Shown here: positions 53,447 through 63,742 of the stretch, piece after piece | How positions within the stretch are numbered: position 1 is the first letter of the stretch | How the letters are laid out: every line of letters begins with the position of its first letter | The notes under the pieces: generated by a model | Database searches by the model: none | What the model saw: only the letters and a program-made list of their open reading frames with translations | Told to the model about the DNA's origin: nothing | Translations under genes and position numbers: made by a program | From: Blepharisma japonicum | Taxonomy: Eukaryota > Ciliophora > Heterotrichea > Heterotrichida > Blepharismidae | Assembly: GCA_949751835.1 (NCBI GenBank) | Contig: CATKHK010000064.1 | Coordinates: 186,001 to 250,000 of the forward strand | Direction of reading: 5' to 3' | DNA length: 64,000 nt

Positions 53447-55501
53447 ATGAATTTTTCAGACGAAAACCAAGCACTTGCCAAAGCCAAAACTACTTTGAAT
53501 AAAACTTTATCTGAGCTAGAAGGCGATATTTCCTTAGTGCATGTAAGGATCAAAAAATTAATAGCAGATTTTAGAAAAAATCAAGAAAACTCTGCATTTG
53601 AACTCGCAGGAGCTTTAAATAGAGAAGTTGACACCCATAGACAAGTGCTATGCACATTGCATAAAGCTGCGTCAAATGCTTTACTAGAACCTATTGAGCA
53701 TTTAGGAAGCCTTTGTCCTGATCAGCCTGGATCTCTTAAAAGCATAGTAATTGCTCAGGCAAATATTTCACAAACAATTAACATTGTAAAGCCTTTTCTC
53801 AATTTGGAAAAAACATTGGCTGATTTAAGGAAAGATTTTGGAGATAAAGAAAAACTTGCTTCTATTGTAAACCAAGGGATCAAGCTATCTGATCACAAAA
53901 GAAAATTATTGGAAAAGGCTCCACCGAGCGTTAGAGAGGCACTTAAAAAGCAATTTGCTCCTTTGGATGAATTTGAAGCTGAGCTTAACACATCGATATG
54001 AAGAGTAATAGAAAATTCAATAGAAATAGCACAAAAACAACCTAAAGCTATTGTAAGGGTAATAAAAATTATTAGAAATATTCATGAGCAAGCTGAAGAA
54101 AAGGTAAGAGAGCACTTGGGATTGGGAATTGAAAAAAGGCTTCTATCGTTACTAAATATCGAAAATTTAGAAAAATTATCAGAAAATACTCATCAAGCCA
54201 TAAATGAACTCGGTGTAATGATAGAAAAAGTTTTGCCTTGTTTTCCTCCCGAGTATAATCTTTATAACTATTGTGTTAGCAAATACAGGAATTGCATACA
54301 AGCTGCAATCGAACCTCAATTATCTGATTTAGAAAAACTCCGAGCCTCTCCAGGGCTGCTTGTATTGATTTTTCAATGGGTTTCTGAATACAGCGAAGCA
54401 ATTAAAAAATACTGCGCTGATTCCTTGGAAGATGTAGACATTCAAATTCTTTTTGCTAAAGTAAAAGAGCTCATGCCAGATTTTATTCAACACATGGAAA
54501 ATCTTCTATCAGAATGAATAAATCGAGCCTTGCAAGCTCATTCATCCAACAACCAAATCATGGAAATGGCTGCTAAATATGAGCCACTTACAGACACTTT
54601 GCCAGAAGAAATGTTTTCAGCAGTCAACCAGCAGCTTAATTTTGTCTCAAATAGACTTTCAGGTGAAGTTCTAATTGAAATTTTTCGTGTCTGTGCAAAT
54701 CGACTGATATCTCAACAAAAAAAATTATCATCACAAATTTCTGAGATGATAAATCTGGAAGACCCTGAGCTGCAAGTCGCTTCATTATGTTTAAGTATAA
54801 ATAACAATCAGCGAGCTTCTAAACATACAGTGGATTTAATGAAATCTTGCAAGAAATATTATACAGAAAGTTTCCAATTAGAAAGAATTGAAAAAATGTT
54901 TGAAGGTGTTCAAAAAGGGTTTTTAACCCTTTGTGGAGAAGGCGCAAATGCACTTGCTATAAGTGTTTTAAGATCCATAGCCCCAGACACTGTTCTTGTG
55001 TTATTTACTACTAATTGGATTGCAAGTGGTCCAGTTCCTAGCGCATTTGCCACTATGGAAGACTATGATAAAGATATCTCCCAATGGCTGTCAACCGAAT
55101 ACTACGAAAGACGTTTTAAGCGACGCTTTTTTGAAGTTTATTTGCAAGCTTATCTAGAAAGGCTGGTCCAATCATTTTCCAAAGTTGTAAATGTCATATA
55201 CGATTATCAAGTTTTATTACTTATACAAGGAAATAACCAAGCATCTAAAAACAAAAAAGAAATGTCATTGGTACTCAGCCAGTTTAGAGAAACTGTTTAT
55301 AGGGATAAACATGATTTTATGGACTTTGCTAGTAAACTTGAAATGCAGATTCCGATAGAAACTCTTTTTAATGGACTGGTAGCATTGCAAGAGCAAGGGG
55401 ATCTTGATGTTGAGCAGCTTTCAGCTCTTATCCAGCCGTTTATACCAAACAGTGAGCAGCTGGCAAAAGCAATAATAACAGTAATTCAGCCACAAACATA
55501 A
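53447..55501 (+). CDS. Exocyst complex component Sec6 (EXOC3)-like, 684 aa
   Basis: Three ORFs in the same frame are joined by TGA-Trp codons (at 53999-54001 and 54515-54517, giving SEWINRALQ). The N-terminal ~150 residues are coiled coil. Later segments WVSEYSEAIKKY, LPEEMFSAVNQQLNFV, and the C-terminal ATMEDYDKDISQWLSTEYYERRF and LFNGLVALQEQGDLDVEQL follow the order of the Sec6 helical bundles. Exocyst tethers secretory vesicles to the plasma membrane. The start is 12 bp after the previous gene's stop. Ends at TAA. Confidence 0.75.
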
Positions 55502-55533: not shown

Positions 55534-57333
55534 ATGGCATATCATTTTGAATCATCTGAAGCTTATCTCTTTGATTTTGATTCCGAAACTTGGCAGAAAA
55601 TCGACATCGACTGGAACGAAAATTTTGGGACACGGTTTTGTGTAGTTTATTGCGGGACTTCTGTATTTCTTATTGGAGGTATTTATAATGGCACTTTAAA
55701 TAGAGTTTTGCAATTAGAAAATTCTTCTATTAGAAAACTAACACCTATGCTTTCTAATAGAGCTGACTTGTGTGCAGTATCTTCGTCAGACACAATTTAC
55801 GCTATAGGAGGATATAATGAAGAATCTGAACAAGCTTTAAACACTGTGGAAGCTTATAGTATTGAAAAAAATAAATGAACGTCTTTGCCTCAATTAATTT
55901 ACCCCAGGGTTAACTCAGCAGCAGTAATTAATGCACAATTTATCTACGTTTGTGGAGGAGTCGGAATTTCCACAATAGAAAGGTTTGACATAAATAATGA
56001 AGAATGGACTCTATCTGATTTGATTTTGCCTGTGAGCATTTCGTCGCTTGGGATTTTTATTGTAGCAAGTAGCTCTGTCATGGTTTTTGGAGGAAAAGAT
56101 GAGTCAGGGGCAGCTTTACAGAACGTGTGGATGTTTGATTTGCAGAATGAGTCAATCGTGATGCAACAGCAGCTAAGGAAGCCGTTTAGTGTAAATAAGC
56201 CTACAATATTGAGGTTTGGGATGATTTATTTGTTCAATAATAAAGAATTTACCACTTATAATATAGGGAGGCTGAGGGAAAGAACACTATCTGAGATAAG
56301 CTTGACTCCTTCAAAAATTGAGTATGTCAGAAATGAAGATTTCCTAAGAAATTCACTAGAACAAGGAATTTTTCATGTAGACAGACACTCAGTTAACTCT
56401 TTTAAAGTTTCATTACCAAACTCTCCTAAAGTTCTTATAGTAAGACGAATTGGCAAAGATGATGAAATCGAGTCAGTTTATATGAGAACAGTCAGGTATT
56501 TATTAGACAAAAACACCACAGTTTTCGTTGAAGCGGATAGGGCTAAAGACCTGAATCCCCAAGTCAGGAGGTTTCATGAAGGATTATGTGATAAAATAAA
56601 TTTAGTCATTACATTAGGAGGGGATGGGACTGTGATATGGGCTATAAGCCTTTTCAAACACAAATCAATGCCACCCTTGCTTGCTTTTAATATGGGGTCT
56701 CTCGGATTTATGACATCTTATAATGTAACTAATTTGACTGAAGTTTTAGATCAAGTTTTTACCTCCCCAAGTATTTATGTAGATTTGATGTCAAGGCTGA
56801 AATGCCATGTAAAAGATATCAGTGAAAAAGCTTGAGGCCAAGCTGCTAATGAAATATGTATTGATAGAGGTCCTGGAGTTTCTTTGTTGGAGCTAGAAGT
56901 TTATCTCAATGGAGAATTGTGCACAACAGCAATTGGAGACGGGCTGCTGATTGCTACACCATGTGGATCAACTGCTTATTCTTTATCTGCAGGTGGTTCT
57001 ATAGTACATCATGGAGTTCCAGCTATATTATTAACCCCAATATGTCCTCATTCTTTATCATTCAGACCAATTTTGCTTCCTGATTCTGTAACAATTACTA
57101 TTAAAGTCCCTGAAAATTCAAGAATACCTGCGTGGGTTGGTATTGACGGGCATTCAAAATTTAAACTTGCAAGAGGAGCATCGATGGATGTGACCGTTTC
57201 TAATTACCCTGTGCCAAGTAAGAGCTATTTAGATATAAATTTAAATCATGATATTGCGTCATGACTTGGAAGACTAAATAATATCTTAGGATGGAATGAT
57301 AGAAGACGTCAAAAACCTATTATACCTTATTAG
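55534..57333 (+). CDS. Kelch-repeat / NAD kinase fusion protein, 599 aa
   Basis: One frame across three ORFs joined by TGA-Trp (55876-55878, 56833-56835 and one near 57262). Residues 1 to about 235 hold Kelch-type repeats (FLIGGIYN, IYAIGGYNEE...NTVEAYS, IYVCGGVG, VMVFGGKDE...NVWMFD). Residues about 300-590 are an ATP-NAD kinase: LVITLGGDGTVIW (about 362), FNMGSLGFMT, ANEICIDRG, and GDGLLIATPCGSTAYSLSAGG (about 470-485). NAD kinase makes NADP from NAD and ATP. The Kelch part should bind a partner and could localise or control the enzyme. Ends at TAG. Confidence 0.88.
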
Positions 57334-57467: not shown

Positions 57468-58112
57468 TTACATCTCTTTCATTGGTCTAGTCTCCAAGTA
57501 CTCTTTAAAGGTTTGTGAAGAATTTATCATTCTTTGACACCATTGAGCAAGCTTAGGAGCGTTCTGGTTAATAAGGTTTCCATATCTTTCTACTCTTCCT
57601 GGACACATCATATAGTTATAAATCATATCAAAAATCATGAAATCAGCTAAAGTCACATTATTTCCCATAAAGAATCTATTACCGTTTTGGACTCTATTAA
57701 GTCTGGCTTCAATTTTTCTTAAAATAGTTGGCATTTTTTCATTCATAAGTCTTTCAATTCCCTCCTGATCTCTATTCTTATAACACTCTTTAAAAATGTC
57801 TCTGACATGCTCTCTATAATTTGATAAAGAATCTACCATATAACAGTCAACAAGATTTGTGGGATTTGGGTAGTAATTAAGCTTTTGGGCCACATATTTA
57901 TAAGTTGCACAGGGTTCAGTCAATCTCATCCCATCGATGTCTAGACAAGGGAGCATATCGAACTCTGAAAATCCTTGGCCCATCATCTGGTTCCATTCTT
58001 GTTGATTTACACGGTGATCTACAAATGGAGTGTTGTGGTATTTTAGCATCATTCTGAGAGGCTCTCCACGTCCAAACATATCGAAATAGTGAAGGGTGAT
58101 TCCTTGCTGCAT
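57468..58112 (-). CDS. Glutathione S-transferase, sigma-like, 214 aa
   Basis: The N-terminal thioredoxin fold has LHYFDMFGRGEPLRMML, the catalytic Tyr segment of the alpha/mu/pi/sigma group, the cis-Pro motif MLPCLDIDGMRL and the EP pair replacing ES after it (LTEPCATYKYV). The C-terminal all-helical domain contains the N-capping box NVTLADFMIFDMI. It could detoxify or isomerise lipid-derived substrates with glutathione in the cytosol. Unrelated in class to the theta-like GST at the left edge. Ends at TAA. Confidence 0.88.
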   Translation of the reverse strand: MQQGITLHYFDMFGRGEPLRMMLKYHNTPFVDHRVNQQEWNQMMGQGFSEFDMLPCLDIDGMRLTEPCATYKYVAQKLNYYPNPTNLVDCYMVDSLSNYREHVRDIFKECYKNRDQEGIERLMNEKMPTILRKIEARLNRVQNGNRFFMGNNVTLADFMIFDMIYNYMMCPGRVERYGNLINQNAPKLAQWCQRMINSSQTFKEYLETRPMKEM

Positions 58113-59341: not shown

Positions 59342-62300
59342 TTAATTCATCCCCATACTAATTGCTTTTGCAAGAGTATTTCTTAGCTTTTTTCTGTGCT
59401 GGGGATTGGATGGGAATTTTTTTGAATGTAATTTTTGCAAGAAATCACTTGCCGTCCCAATTTCTTTCGGAATGCAGATTCACTCCATTAGCGCTCTGAC
59501 TTGATCTGCATAACTCCAAAGCTCTTTTCCTTTGTCTAGTGCTAAAAGTTTCTTACTAAGCATAGCAATGCGCACCAATGCTTCTTTAAATTCATATAGA
59601 GTTAATGATAAAGGAGACTCAGCGGTTGATATCTTATTTCTCGTTAAAACTCGGAATATTCTAGTTGTATCCTCATTGCCCATAAAATATGAAGAAATAT
59701 TAAATTGCGAACAGAATTTGTGGAATCCGACTAATGAAAGAGATTTCGAGCTTGTGGAATCAGGAAAGGTTTTTGTATAGAATTCATAAGCAGCTACAAT
59801 TGAATTGTTATATTCGGTTAAAACTTCATTTACCCATCTATCCATCATTGCTGAGCCAATATAATGCTTTACTTCCTGTTCTAGCTTCATTTTTTCATGC
59901 TCATCAATGACTATTTCATTTTTTTGATTTTTTCCTCTACTTTTAGATCTCATAGTAGATTCGAAGCTTTTAGAATTATCTCTGCTCGACTTTGACCTTT
60001 TTTTAGTTGGCTCTTCTTTAACAATCACTATTTCTTCTCTTTTCTCTTCAATTCTTTTCGGGCTCTGCTCTCTAATTTTTAGCGTCATTTTTAAAAACTG
60101 TTCTCTATCTTTTTTTCTTTTTTCTTCCATTTGTTTCTTCTCTTCTTCAGCCTCTAACAGTTTTCTTTCCTCTTCTTCTTGTTTTCTTTTTTTAAATTCT
60201 TGTATTTTAGGTTCATTTATTTCTTTCATTTTTTTAAGAGTATTAGCTCTTACCATCATTTGTCTTCTTTCTCTTTCTTCTTCAATTCTTCTCATTTCTT
60301 CATCTTCCCTCATTTTTTCTTCTTTTTCGAGTTTAATTTCTTTTAATTTGTATTCTAATGACTGTCTTCTTAGGAATCGTTTCCTCTCTAGCCGCTCTTC
60401 TTCTGCTCTTTGCTGAATTTCTTCATTTAATTTCTGTTCAATAAATCTATTTATAATAGATCCAGCTGGCTTCGGGTTTCTACTGATTACAGTAAAGCTG
60501 CTGTTTTCTACAGAATAAATTAAGTCATCAAGAGTTTTTGAACACTCTAACAAGATGTCATTTGGATAACTTCCTCTAAGCCTTGTGACTTCTACCTTAA
60601 TTCCAGGTGTTAGCTTTAAATAAGCAGGCAATGGTTTGATCTTATATTTACCTTTATTTGAAGGCACCCCAAAGGTTGGAGAGGTTTCTACTTCTGGCTT
60701 CGTTAAGGACCCTTTAGCATGGTAAACAGTTTTTACTGATATATTGTGCTCTAATAAATGAATTCCAATGGTATCGAAAAATAAATCGTCAAGAATCTCT
60801 AAAACAATTTTTTGATGACTTCATAAGCCGAGATGATTTGGAATTTTATAACTGACGTCAAGTGCTTTAGCTTTCACTTTTTGGTAACCTTCTGGCATCT
60901 CTATGTTAGAGTCATACTTAAGTAGCTCAGTAATACTTTTAGAGACATCTCGGTCACCAGCTCCATAATCGGGCTCTTCGTATAAGTGTAAAGGAATCCC
61001 ATTATCGACTGCCCGTTTTGAAAAATGCTCGAATAAAACTTGCACAGAAGCTGCATATGGGTAAGTAGTTAGCTCTATTGGTGGCCTTGAATAAATATAT
61101 ACAGCTATTTGAAATATGAAATTAAAATAGCCTTCATAACTCAACACAGGAATTTTCATTTTTTGGATTATCAAATTATATATTTTTTTCATTTCCATAA
61201 CAGAAATCATAGATTGAGTGACACCTTGCTCTCTTAATAATTTTGCAAGTTCTCCTTCAGTTATGCTGGATTTTGTCTCCTTTAGGCTTTCAAAGGTCCC
61301 ACTTGGCCCCATATCTTTTTTATGGCCTGAAGTGGAATATTTATCATATAATAAATTCGCTACCCTTAAATATTTTTTAAAAACAACATTTACAAGCTCT
61401 TGCTCATTTGGCGTTTCATTTTCTAATTCAATTAAACTTATTTGATCATCCACTGGTGTGTGGCTTTTAATTACCAAAGTATTTTCTGCACTTTTGCTTT
61501 CAATTCCAAGCTGAATTCTTCTCTTTTCAATTTGTATCTTTAATGCTTTTTTCGTTTTTTCTTCAATTGCTTTTTTCCTTTCAGTTTTGCTTATTTGTAG
61601 AAGCTCTCTTTCCATGCGTTTCTGTTTGATTTTTTCTAAATCATTTTGTACTCGACCATTTGGAACTGTTGTAAGGCTTGCTACTGCATATTTATTGTTT
61701 GGATCAGAAGTTGCTGATTTAAACGATCCTTTTGGCTCAGAATTAGGTGGGCTATCTGAATCAGCTTCATATTTGTTTATCATTTCAATTGGGTCACCTA
61801 ACAATGCTAAAATAATTAAAATTCCATTAAAATTTTCCCCACTAATTTTTTTCAATTCTGAATTTGTATATAATAGCTGATCTTTTAGCTGTGTATTTAA
61901 ATCCCAACATCTTAGTGCAATAAGTTTTTCAATAAGAGATAATGTTATATTTCTCATATGCAAATATTTAGTCTCATTTTCTGGGGAACTTTTTTTATTT
62001 TTTTTAGCTTTAAATAGCTTAATTACAGATTTCAGGCCAAAATTTGCAAATTTTGTTATATATTGTTCCATAGGCTTAAACTCAATATATCTTCCAGCTA
62101 GTAAAATTAATGGAACTTGTGCAGCTTTTGCATATATTGGATCATTATAATAAACTTTTCCAAGAAAATCAACTAATAAAATAACATGCTCTATTTCAAG
62201 CTTAGGATGCCTTACAATACTTACAAAAAAATCAAAATCAGAAATATTGTAAAGCTCATCAGCAACCTGCAATTGCTTGATTAAAGGGTCCAATAAAATA

Positions 62301-63742
62301 CTTAAAGGAATTTTTGGGTCATCTTCTATTAATTTAGCAAAACTTATATATAAAAATTCTCTGATGGCTAGGTTCGAATAGTTTTCTACAAGTGAAAATG
62401 TAAGTGACTTGTAAATAATTGGAGCATAAGAATTCTTAGCAGCTGAGAACGCAGATAGAAGTTTAAATAAATTTAAAAATGATGTGATTTTAATAATGCT
62501 GCAGTTATCTCTGTTTCCTGACTTCAGTGCGTTTAATATCAAATTTGAGCAGTCTTCTGTAATCTGGTAAGAGTTTGGTAAAATTTTTCATAATTCTGTA
62601 AGAAAATTCATAGGAAAAATCTGCTTTGGATTTTTTTCAGCTTCCATCAAGCCTTCATAAATCCAGTATGTATAAATATCTTGATTCATAAAAAGTTGAT
62701 TAAGTTTTATGTTTGAGCTAATCAATGGTGCAATAAGCAAAACAACATCAAAAAATCCGACTAAGTCTCCAGCACTCTGCTTAAAGCTTTCCCCAAAAAT
62801 TTTTCTTAGCTCTTTCTTTCCGCACTCTATAAGAAAATTCAATAAATTTTCAACACAATTTTCATTCATCGCTTTAATTATTAAGGATAATGTATCACTC
62901 CTCATAAGCCATTCGAAAATTTCATCTTCATACCATCCTCTCTTCATTTCTATAAATAATTCTATGCATTTCTCCATTGTTTCACTATTTTTGCTTGCGA
63001 GCCCTGGCTTTAGGGCAGTTAGTACAAGATTGAGTGCTCCTTGGTCAAACTCCTTCTGCACTAATTTTTTTAGATGAACCAAATTATTTAATATAGATTG
63101 GTATCACTCTAAAATCGGCTCAAACTTACCTTTTAAGCCTTTCATAATGACTTGAACCAAAAATTTTCCGTTTTGAGTCAGCAATCCTGCAGCTTGTTTT
63201 GGCTTAACCTGCAAGCACTTACACAAAGAAATTACAAGCATTTCTAAGCATGTTTCTGATTCACTTAAATCAATATTGATATCTATATTATCTAACAACA
63301 AAGCACCATCAGGCGTAAATTTCGGTTGTTTTGGTTTAGCTCTGGGTGATCCATTGAAATTTTTTAACGTTGCTTTATATATCATTTTGATGACCTCAAT
63401 TACCACTTGTTTATCACCTGCAACGATAAGGGCTTTCATATCAGAATCGATAGGAATTTCTAATGATTGCAAAGCTTTTATTATAAGGTTTCAATTAAAT
63501 AGTCGTGAACTTGCAGTATTAGCGTTTTGGAGGGTTGAAAAATCTGGCACCCCAAAACGATCACGTGTGGATCGTTTCATGGAATTTAAGAGCTGATTTA
63601 TTAAAGGAACGACTCCAAGACCAATTTCAAAAATATGAAGATCAAGTTCATGGATGATATAAGGAGGCTTTGAAGAGGATTGAGAGTTTTCTAGTAGATT
63701 GGTTTGAGTTAGGAAGTTAAAAAGATGTTCGTCTACTTCCAT
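59342..63742 (-). CDS. Very large, probably ciliary protein of unknown family, 1466 aa
   Basis: Five ORFs in one frame are joined only by TGA-Trp codons (63493-63491, 63106-63104, 62590-62588, 60823-60821, 59482-59480), from MEVDEHLFNFLTQTN to TAA at 59344-59342. The first ~140 residues resemble a CH-like fold (LIIKALQSLEIPIDSDMKAL, IVAGDKQVVIEVIKMIYKAT), as in sperm/ciliary proteins. Residues about 140-650 look like helical ARM/HEAT-type repeats. Short Lys/Glu-rich helices lie near 700-750. A strongly charged coiled coil lies at about 1100-1230 (RREEEMRRIEEERERR-type). The C-terminal 200 residues are helical. No domain name can be given with certainty. Confidence 0.7.

Follow-up and report, generated by a model that had tools for sequence, protein, structure and literature searches.

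Does a ciliate NAD kinase (NADK) carry a protein-binding module of its own, and if so, what might that module do? The question is raised by a single open reading frame (ORF; positions 55534-57333, + strand) in a 64,000-nucleotide stretch of Blepharisma japonicum DNA (contig CATKHK010000064.1, positions 186,001 to 250,000), the whole of which is referred to below as the window, and for which an earlier reading of the sequence (the original prediction) had placed Kelch repeats and a complete NAD kinase in one continuous frame. NAD kinase converts NAD to NADP in most cells; to our knowledge, little has been established about its control or positioning outside animals and plants. The best explanation of the data as a whole, and one that we consider reasonably probable, is that, in a ciliate reading UGA as tryptophan (Trp) and having tiny introns, one gene encodes a bimodular NAD kinase. 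On this reading, the enzyme that makes NADP in this cell seems to have a docking or control module built into it.

Two modules in one open reading frame

The interval 55534-57333 is open for 599 codons only with three in-frame TGA codons (55876-55878, 56833-56835 and 57262-57264; residues 115, 434 and 577) read as Trp, and it ends in a TAG stop. Each of the remaining five frames of the interval contains 18 to 38 stops, and in base shuffles of the same interval (n = 300) the longest open run was 184 codons, with a mean of 92. Two in-frame TAA codons lie immediately 5' of the ATG, both in the window copy and in a paralogue described below, so the Kelch part is the start of the protein, barring an additional exon spliced on from further upstream. 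The open frame, the shuffles and the Pfam matches given next bear out the claim of one continuous Kelch and NAD kinase frame.

The Kelch propeller occupies residues 1 to approximately 283 (55534-56382, + strand). Pfam families matched were Kelch_1 (73.9 bits, E = 6.6e-21, cut-off 20.1), Kelch_6 (71.0 bits, cut-off 25.3) and PF24681 (64.1 bits, cut-off 50), and the first half of the protein matches Kelch proteins among solved structures. For folding, residues 1-294 were aligned with 40 of 68 candidate Kelch rows, chosen by hand and for the most part high on the list. The resulting AlphaFold2 model has a mean predicted local distance difference test (pLDDT) score of 80.2 and a predicted template modelling (pTM) score of 0.78, with higher confidence in the propeller core (approximately residues 35-220), four confident blades and an N-terminal strand pair at a block pLDDT of 74-82. 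The closing blade is of low confidence: its stretch, approximately residues 225-283, has block pLDDT means of 27-68, yet superposes on Kelch structures in Foldseek and VIA-align. As modelled, the propeller is probably six-bladed over approximately residues 1-283. Kelch repeats had been predicted in the first ~235 residues; the domain is indeed there, and probably extends further, to ~243-283, with low confidence in its last part. A mixed alignment of the window protein with 41 of 68 Kelch rows and 25 of 26 NADK rows was rejected for folding because the Kelch rows fell against the NADK half, and was used solely for motif counts in the NADK rows.

The NAD kinase core follows at approximately residues 291-590 (56404-57303, + strand, including the predicted 15-nt intron discussed below). 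PF01513 (NAD_kinase) matches residues 314-410 (53.0 bits, E = 5.5e-14, cut-off 25.5) and PF20143 (NAD_kinase_C) matches residues 439-560 (120.2 bits, E = 6e-35, cut-off 23.7). Among solved structures, the four highest-ranking hits are chains that bear the name NAD kinase (9cr4, 8kgc, 9cr3 and 3pfn; E = 1.6e-57 to 2.2e-54), which we take to be human NAD kinase, and the next is the POS5 NADH kinase (3afo; E = 7.2e-44, residues 350-526), presumably the yeast protein. The core was aligned to solved NAD kinases across residues 291-428 and 435-594.

NAD kinase hallmarks, as given in a published account (PMC11233901), are a GGDG motif, an NE/D motif and a glycine-rich conserved region. In the window protein these correspond to GGDGT at residues 362-366 (56617-56631), NE at residues 439-440 (56848-56853) and TPCGSTAYSLSAGG from residue 475, all on the + strand, and a GDG motif is present at residues 468-470. 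The GGDGT, NE and GSTAY motifs of a complete NAD kinase were thus found where claimed, GSTAY at residues 478-482; what precedes GSTAY differs from the usual form, the context being TPCGSTAY (residues 475-482; 56956-56979, + strand) in both copies and not TPTGSTAY. Comparison NADK rows, 25 in number, were retrieved by patterns on GGDG and TP[TC]GSTAY; GGDG, N439 and D or E at residue 440 are each present in 25 of 25, with agreement at GGDG and at the rest of TPxGSTAY partly by construction, since the rows were fetched with those patterns. Residue 477 (56962-56964) is Cys in both copies versus Thr in all 25 comparison rows, the retrieval pattern having allowed either, and a Cys so placed within a conserved motif could render the enzyme sensitive to oxidation. 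Going by these family, structure and motif matches, the most likely reaction of the core is the ATP-dependent phosphorylation of NAD+ to NADP+.

A second genomic copy and the junction

The genome searched comprises 45,185,585 bases in 224 contigs. A search with the protein gave at least 72 matches, the gene itself among them, and the single full-length relative among the matches listed is a paralogue on another contig (C11:493989-495782), 82% identical over residues 1-599; the 70 remaining matches among those listed stop at or before residue 257, i.e. in the Kelch part. At E<=10, PF20143 is found at the two Kelch-NADK loci only, and PF01513 is found at the same two loci, above its cut-off, and in three weak matches (C3, C10 and C102; E = 0.08-0.24). 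The three were rejected as further NADKs because they are phosphofructokinase-like, an identity given by Pfam for one of them (L035), of which the other two are clear relatives by reading. No further NADK was found in the genome by this exon-by-exon profile search, which a divergent mitochondrial NADK could escape.

Between the modules lies a short junction, with inferred boundaries at approximately residues 284-290 (56383-56403, + strand). Over 598 aligned codons the two copies have 284 identical codons, 207 synonymous differences and 107 non-synonymous differences, and they are separated by one indel of a single codon. Differences at codon positions 1, 2 and 3 number 85, 55 and 274 over the whole alignment and 11, 6 and 31 over residues 236-295, so that divergence is of coding type across the junction. 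Nei-Gojobori pN/pS values are 0.162/0.701 for residues 1-250, 0.112/0.871 for residues 251-290 and 0.058/0.615 for residues 291-560 (with dS close to saturation or past it, the ratios are rough); the corresponding amino-acid identities are 71.5%, 82.5% and 90.0%. By this comparison, both modules and the junction are under purifying-type divergence.

Good support for a genuine fusion comes from the second full-length copy and from the coding-type divergence across the junction. An assembly chimera or a chance frame, in favour of which nothing was found, has a negligible chance of being the explanation: the same architecture recurs on another contig, in a copy whose synonymous divergence from this one is close to saturation, and no shuffle exceeded the 184 codons given above. 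Alternatively, the frame might be read into two products, with the Kelch protein and the NAD kinase made separately, via distinct transcripts or an internal start, as the two domains are separable in other proteins. We consider this very unlikely. Neither copy has an in-frame stop that separates the domains, and a gene split near 56230, named by the original prediction as the refuting case, is not seen in the DNA. In-frame ATG codons are absent from residues 231-316 of the window copy and 210-315 of the paralogue; the only Met near the junction is M230, in the window copy alone, followed by M317 (M316 in the paralogue), which lies approximately 26 residues inside the stretch alignable to solved NADKs. 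These Met positions, together with the coding-type divergence over residues 236-295, argue against an independent NADK from an internal start.

Other Kelch proteins of the genome

The setting of the fusion was surveyed in 26 of 28 non-self Kelch loci, read as stop-to-stop frames without intron handling; the overlapping L017 and L028 were left out, and 42 further matches had no locus. In 25 of the 26, over 40% of the frame precedes the Kelch start; in the other, L026, Kelch covers most of the frame. An NADK domain is present in none (0/26). Within this 26-ORF sample, an N-terminal Kelch domain on a metabolic enzyme stands out as unusual. Kelch is widely reused in the genome, which makes a fusion less improbable.

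The survey also recovered protein kinase-Kelch fusions (L005, L007 and L016), in which a Pkinase domain of 96-111 bits is followed by Kelch repeats, and TRIM-like frames with RING, B-box and C-terminal Kelch (L006, L009, L020, L029 and L032). L025 has a B-box without RING, L014 and L019 have a sub-cut-off B-box-like match, and L018 has a sub-cut-off trypsin-like match.

A degradation adaptor, suggested in the original prediction alongside cytoskeleton or a redox sensor as binding partner, would have the propeller take NADK or its partners to ubiquitination, as the RING/B-box-Kelch proteins of this genome may. The occurrence of RING with B-box in 5 of 26 other Kelch ORFs, and of B-box without RING in one more, speaks for such a role; the Kelch-NADK protein has no RING, B-box, BTB, BACK or phosphatase domain (Pfam, E<=1). 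The adaptor idea is weakened accordingly, and we regard it as improbable, while the fusion on which it was built is well supported.

Proposed role of the propeller

We propose that a Kelch propeller, a very short junction and a complete eukaryotic-type NADK core would form one polypeptide, in which the propeller would take the place of the regulatory N-terminal segment of animal NADK. Its exposed face would most likely bind a partner protein and, because the propeller holds the same position as the animal regulatory N-terminus, the partner is most likely one that positions or adjusts the enzyme. Such a partner could keep the enzyme tethered where NADPH is in demand, or could adjust its activity; if the core is tetrameric like animal cytosolic NADK, four propellers would be displayed per enzyme. 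Enzymatic activity, oligomeric state, partner binding and the choice between a localising and a regulating partner are all steps that we infer.

Several observations weigh against this explanation. The sequence names no partner. From residue 262 onward the Kelch model falls below a pLDDT of 50, and a Pfam search with just residues 251-294 gave no family at E<=0.001. The 40 model rows were selected by Kelch similarity, many of them from long tandem arrays, which biases the model towards a regular propeller, and AlphaFold2 run with the single sequence of the whole 599-aa protein gave a mean pLDDT of 34.4 and no usable placement of Kelch relative to NADK. Protein-level change is also approximately three times faster in the Kelch part than in the NADK part (dN 0.183 vs 0.061), so contacts of the propeller may differ between the copies or matter less.

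The faster amino-acid change, together with the attachment of Kelch to several protein types in the genome, favours the main rival explanation, in which the propeller, as a passive passenger without a binding partner, only helps the kinase to fold or to stay stable. Kelch pN/pS is nevertheless still low (0.162/0.701 as above) and the copies differ by no more than the one single-codon indel, and we judge a passive passenger to be unlikely. Partner binding could also be taken further: with the only detectable NADKs propeller-fused, NADP synthesis would be gated or positioned by the Kelch ligand, the propeller having replaced the regulatory N-terminus as sensor or tether, perhaps with redox sensitivity at Cys477, and the Kelch faces of the two copies would have diverged for different partners or sites. 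This extended proposal is speculative, and we hold it as doubtful.

A protein-binding propeller naturally fused to the enzyme is a pointer to a physical partner, one that could be isolated directly, and would thereby make control of NADP supply in a protist open to experiment. It further suggests that the N-terminal regulatory segment is the part of NADK that evolution treats as replaceable.

Predicted intron and neighbouring genes

A probable 15-nt intron, GTAAGAGCTATTTAG (57218-57232, + strand, phase 1), is predicted within the NADK core. Its counterpart in the paralogue is GTAAGGTTTATTTAG, at identical position and phase, and solved NADK chains whose printed alignment reaches the site have a 5-residue gap there. 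The frame is unbroken by the predicted intron, and excision would give a 594-aa protein. Other paralogue-matched GT-AG stretches were rejected: those of 15 nt at residues 313 and 449 because the alignments to solved NADKs run ungapped across both, and those of 16 nt at residues 44, 126 and 358 because excising 16 bases shifts the open frame. The existence of these further position-matched stretches means that position conservation alone is weak evidence of an intron, and the call at 57218 therefore rests also on the 5-residue gap. TGA as Trp, the TAG stop and the 15-nt intron candidate are consistent with Blepharisma, introns mainly of 15 and 16 bp and UGA as Trp being described for the B. stoltei genome (PMC9942806).

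Upstream of the Kelch-NADK gene, 53447-55501 (+ strand) encodes an exocyst Sec6 homologue (E = 3.1e-31), the stop of which ends 32 bases before the Kelch-NADK ATG. Downstream, a glutathione S-transferase gene (57468-58112, - strand) lies tail-to-tail with the Kelch-NADK gene; an AAA_28-domain frame takes its place in the neighbourhood of the paralogue, so the glutathione S-transferase neighbour may be coincidence. Further downstream is a 1466-aa open frame (59342-63742, - strand), for which the sole match was weak and sub-cut-off, to a CH-like domain of a sperm protein.

Comparison with known systems

Both modules are known, and their combination appears new within the literature searched. Searches by titles and abstract openings, with most subscription papers outside coverage, returned no description of a Kelch-NADK protein, which is consistent with the original prediction, where no standard eukaryotic NADK was known to be arranged in this way. 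Plasmids searched with the whole protein (tblastn) gave 65 records, none with a single place covering 80% of it, and phages, searched with the NADK half only, gave 26 records. No relatives were found in genome and viral contig collections by patterns specific to Kelch-NADK, a search uninformative on the distribution of NADK or Kelch as such. A Paramecium orthogroup is annotated with both NADK domains, and kelch is not mentioned in the main text of that source (PMC9608856).

Cytosolic animal NADK, a homotetramer, shares with Kelch-NADK the core alignment (residues 291-428 and 435-594) and the GGDGT, NE, GDG and GSTAY motifs, and differs in having TPTGSTAY where Kelch-NADK has TPCGSTAY. At the same position relative to the core, the animal enzyme has a regulatory N-terminal segment and Kelch-NADK has its propeller. 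Calmodulin-dependent NAD kinase is characterized by a calmodulin-binding segment and calcium dependence. The N-terminus of the cytosolic animal enzyme is described as poorly conserved and autoinhibitory, with AKT sites, and as bound by G6PD (PMC11233901). The POS5 NADH kinase has a similar core, and no Kelch match was found in the POS5 chain. The bifunctional NADP phosphatase/NAD kinase (NF010678) likewise has an NADK core behind another N-terminal domain; Kelch-NADK matches its model at positions 293-547 (E = 1.2e-44, 153 bits vs a cut-off of 493), and the N-terminal part of the model, including the phosphatase domain, has no match in Kelch-NADK.

Among Kelch proteins, Kelch-NADK was compared with the BTB-BACK-Kelch proteins (Keap1 and the KLHL family) and with the Kelch protein of Plasmodium falciparum; it lacks BTB and BACK at the Pfam threshold given above. 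In this genome, proteins of the RING/B-box-Kelch and protein kinase-Kelch types likewise combine Kelch with a second module, with Kelch C-terminal in them and N-terminal in Kelch-NADK. Compared with Keap1/KLHL and the P. falciparum protein, too, the propeller of Kelch-NADK is distinguished by its N-terminal position and its fusion to a metabolic kinase.
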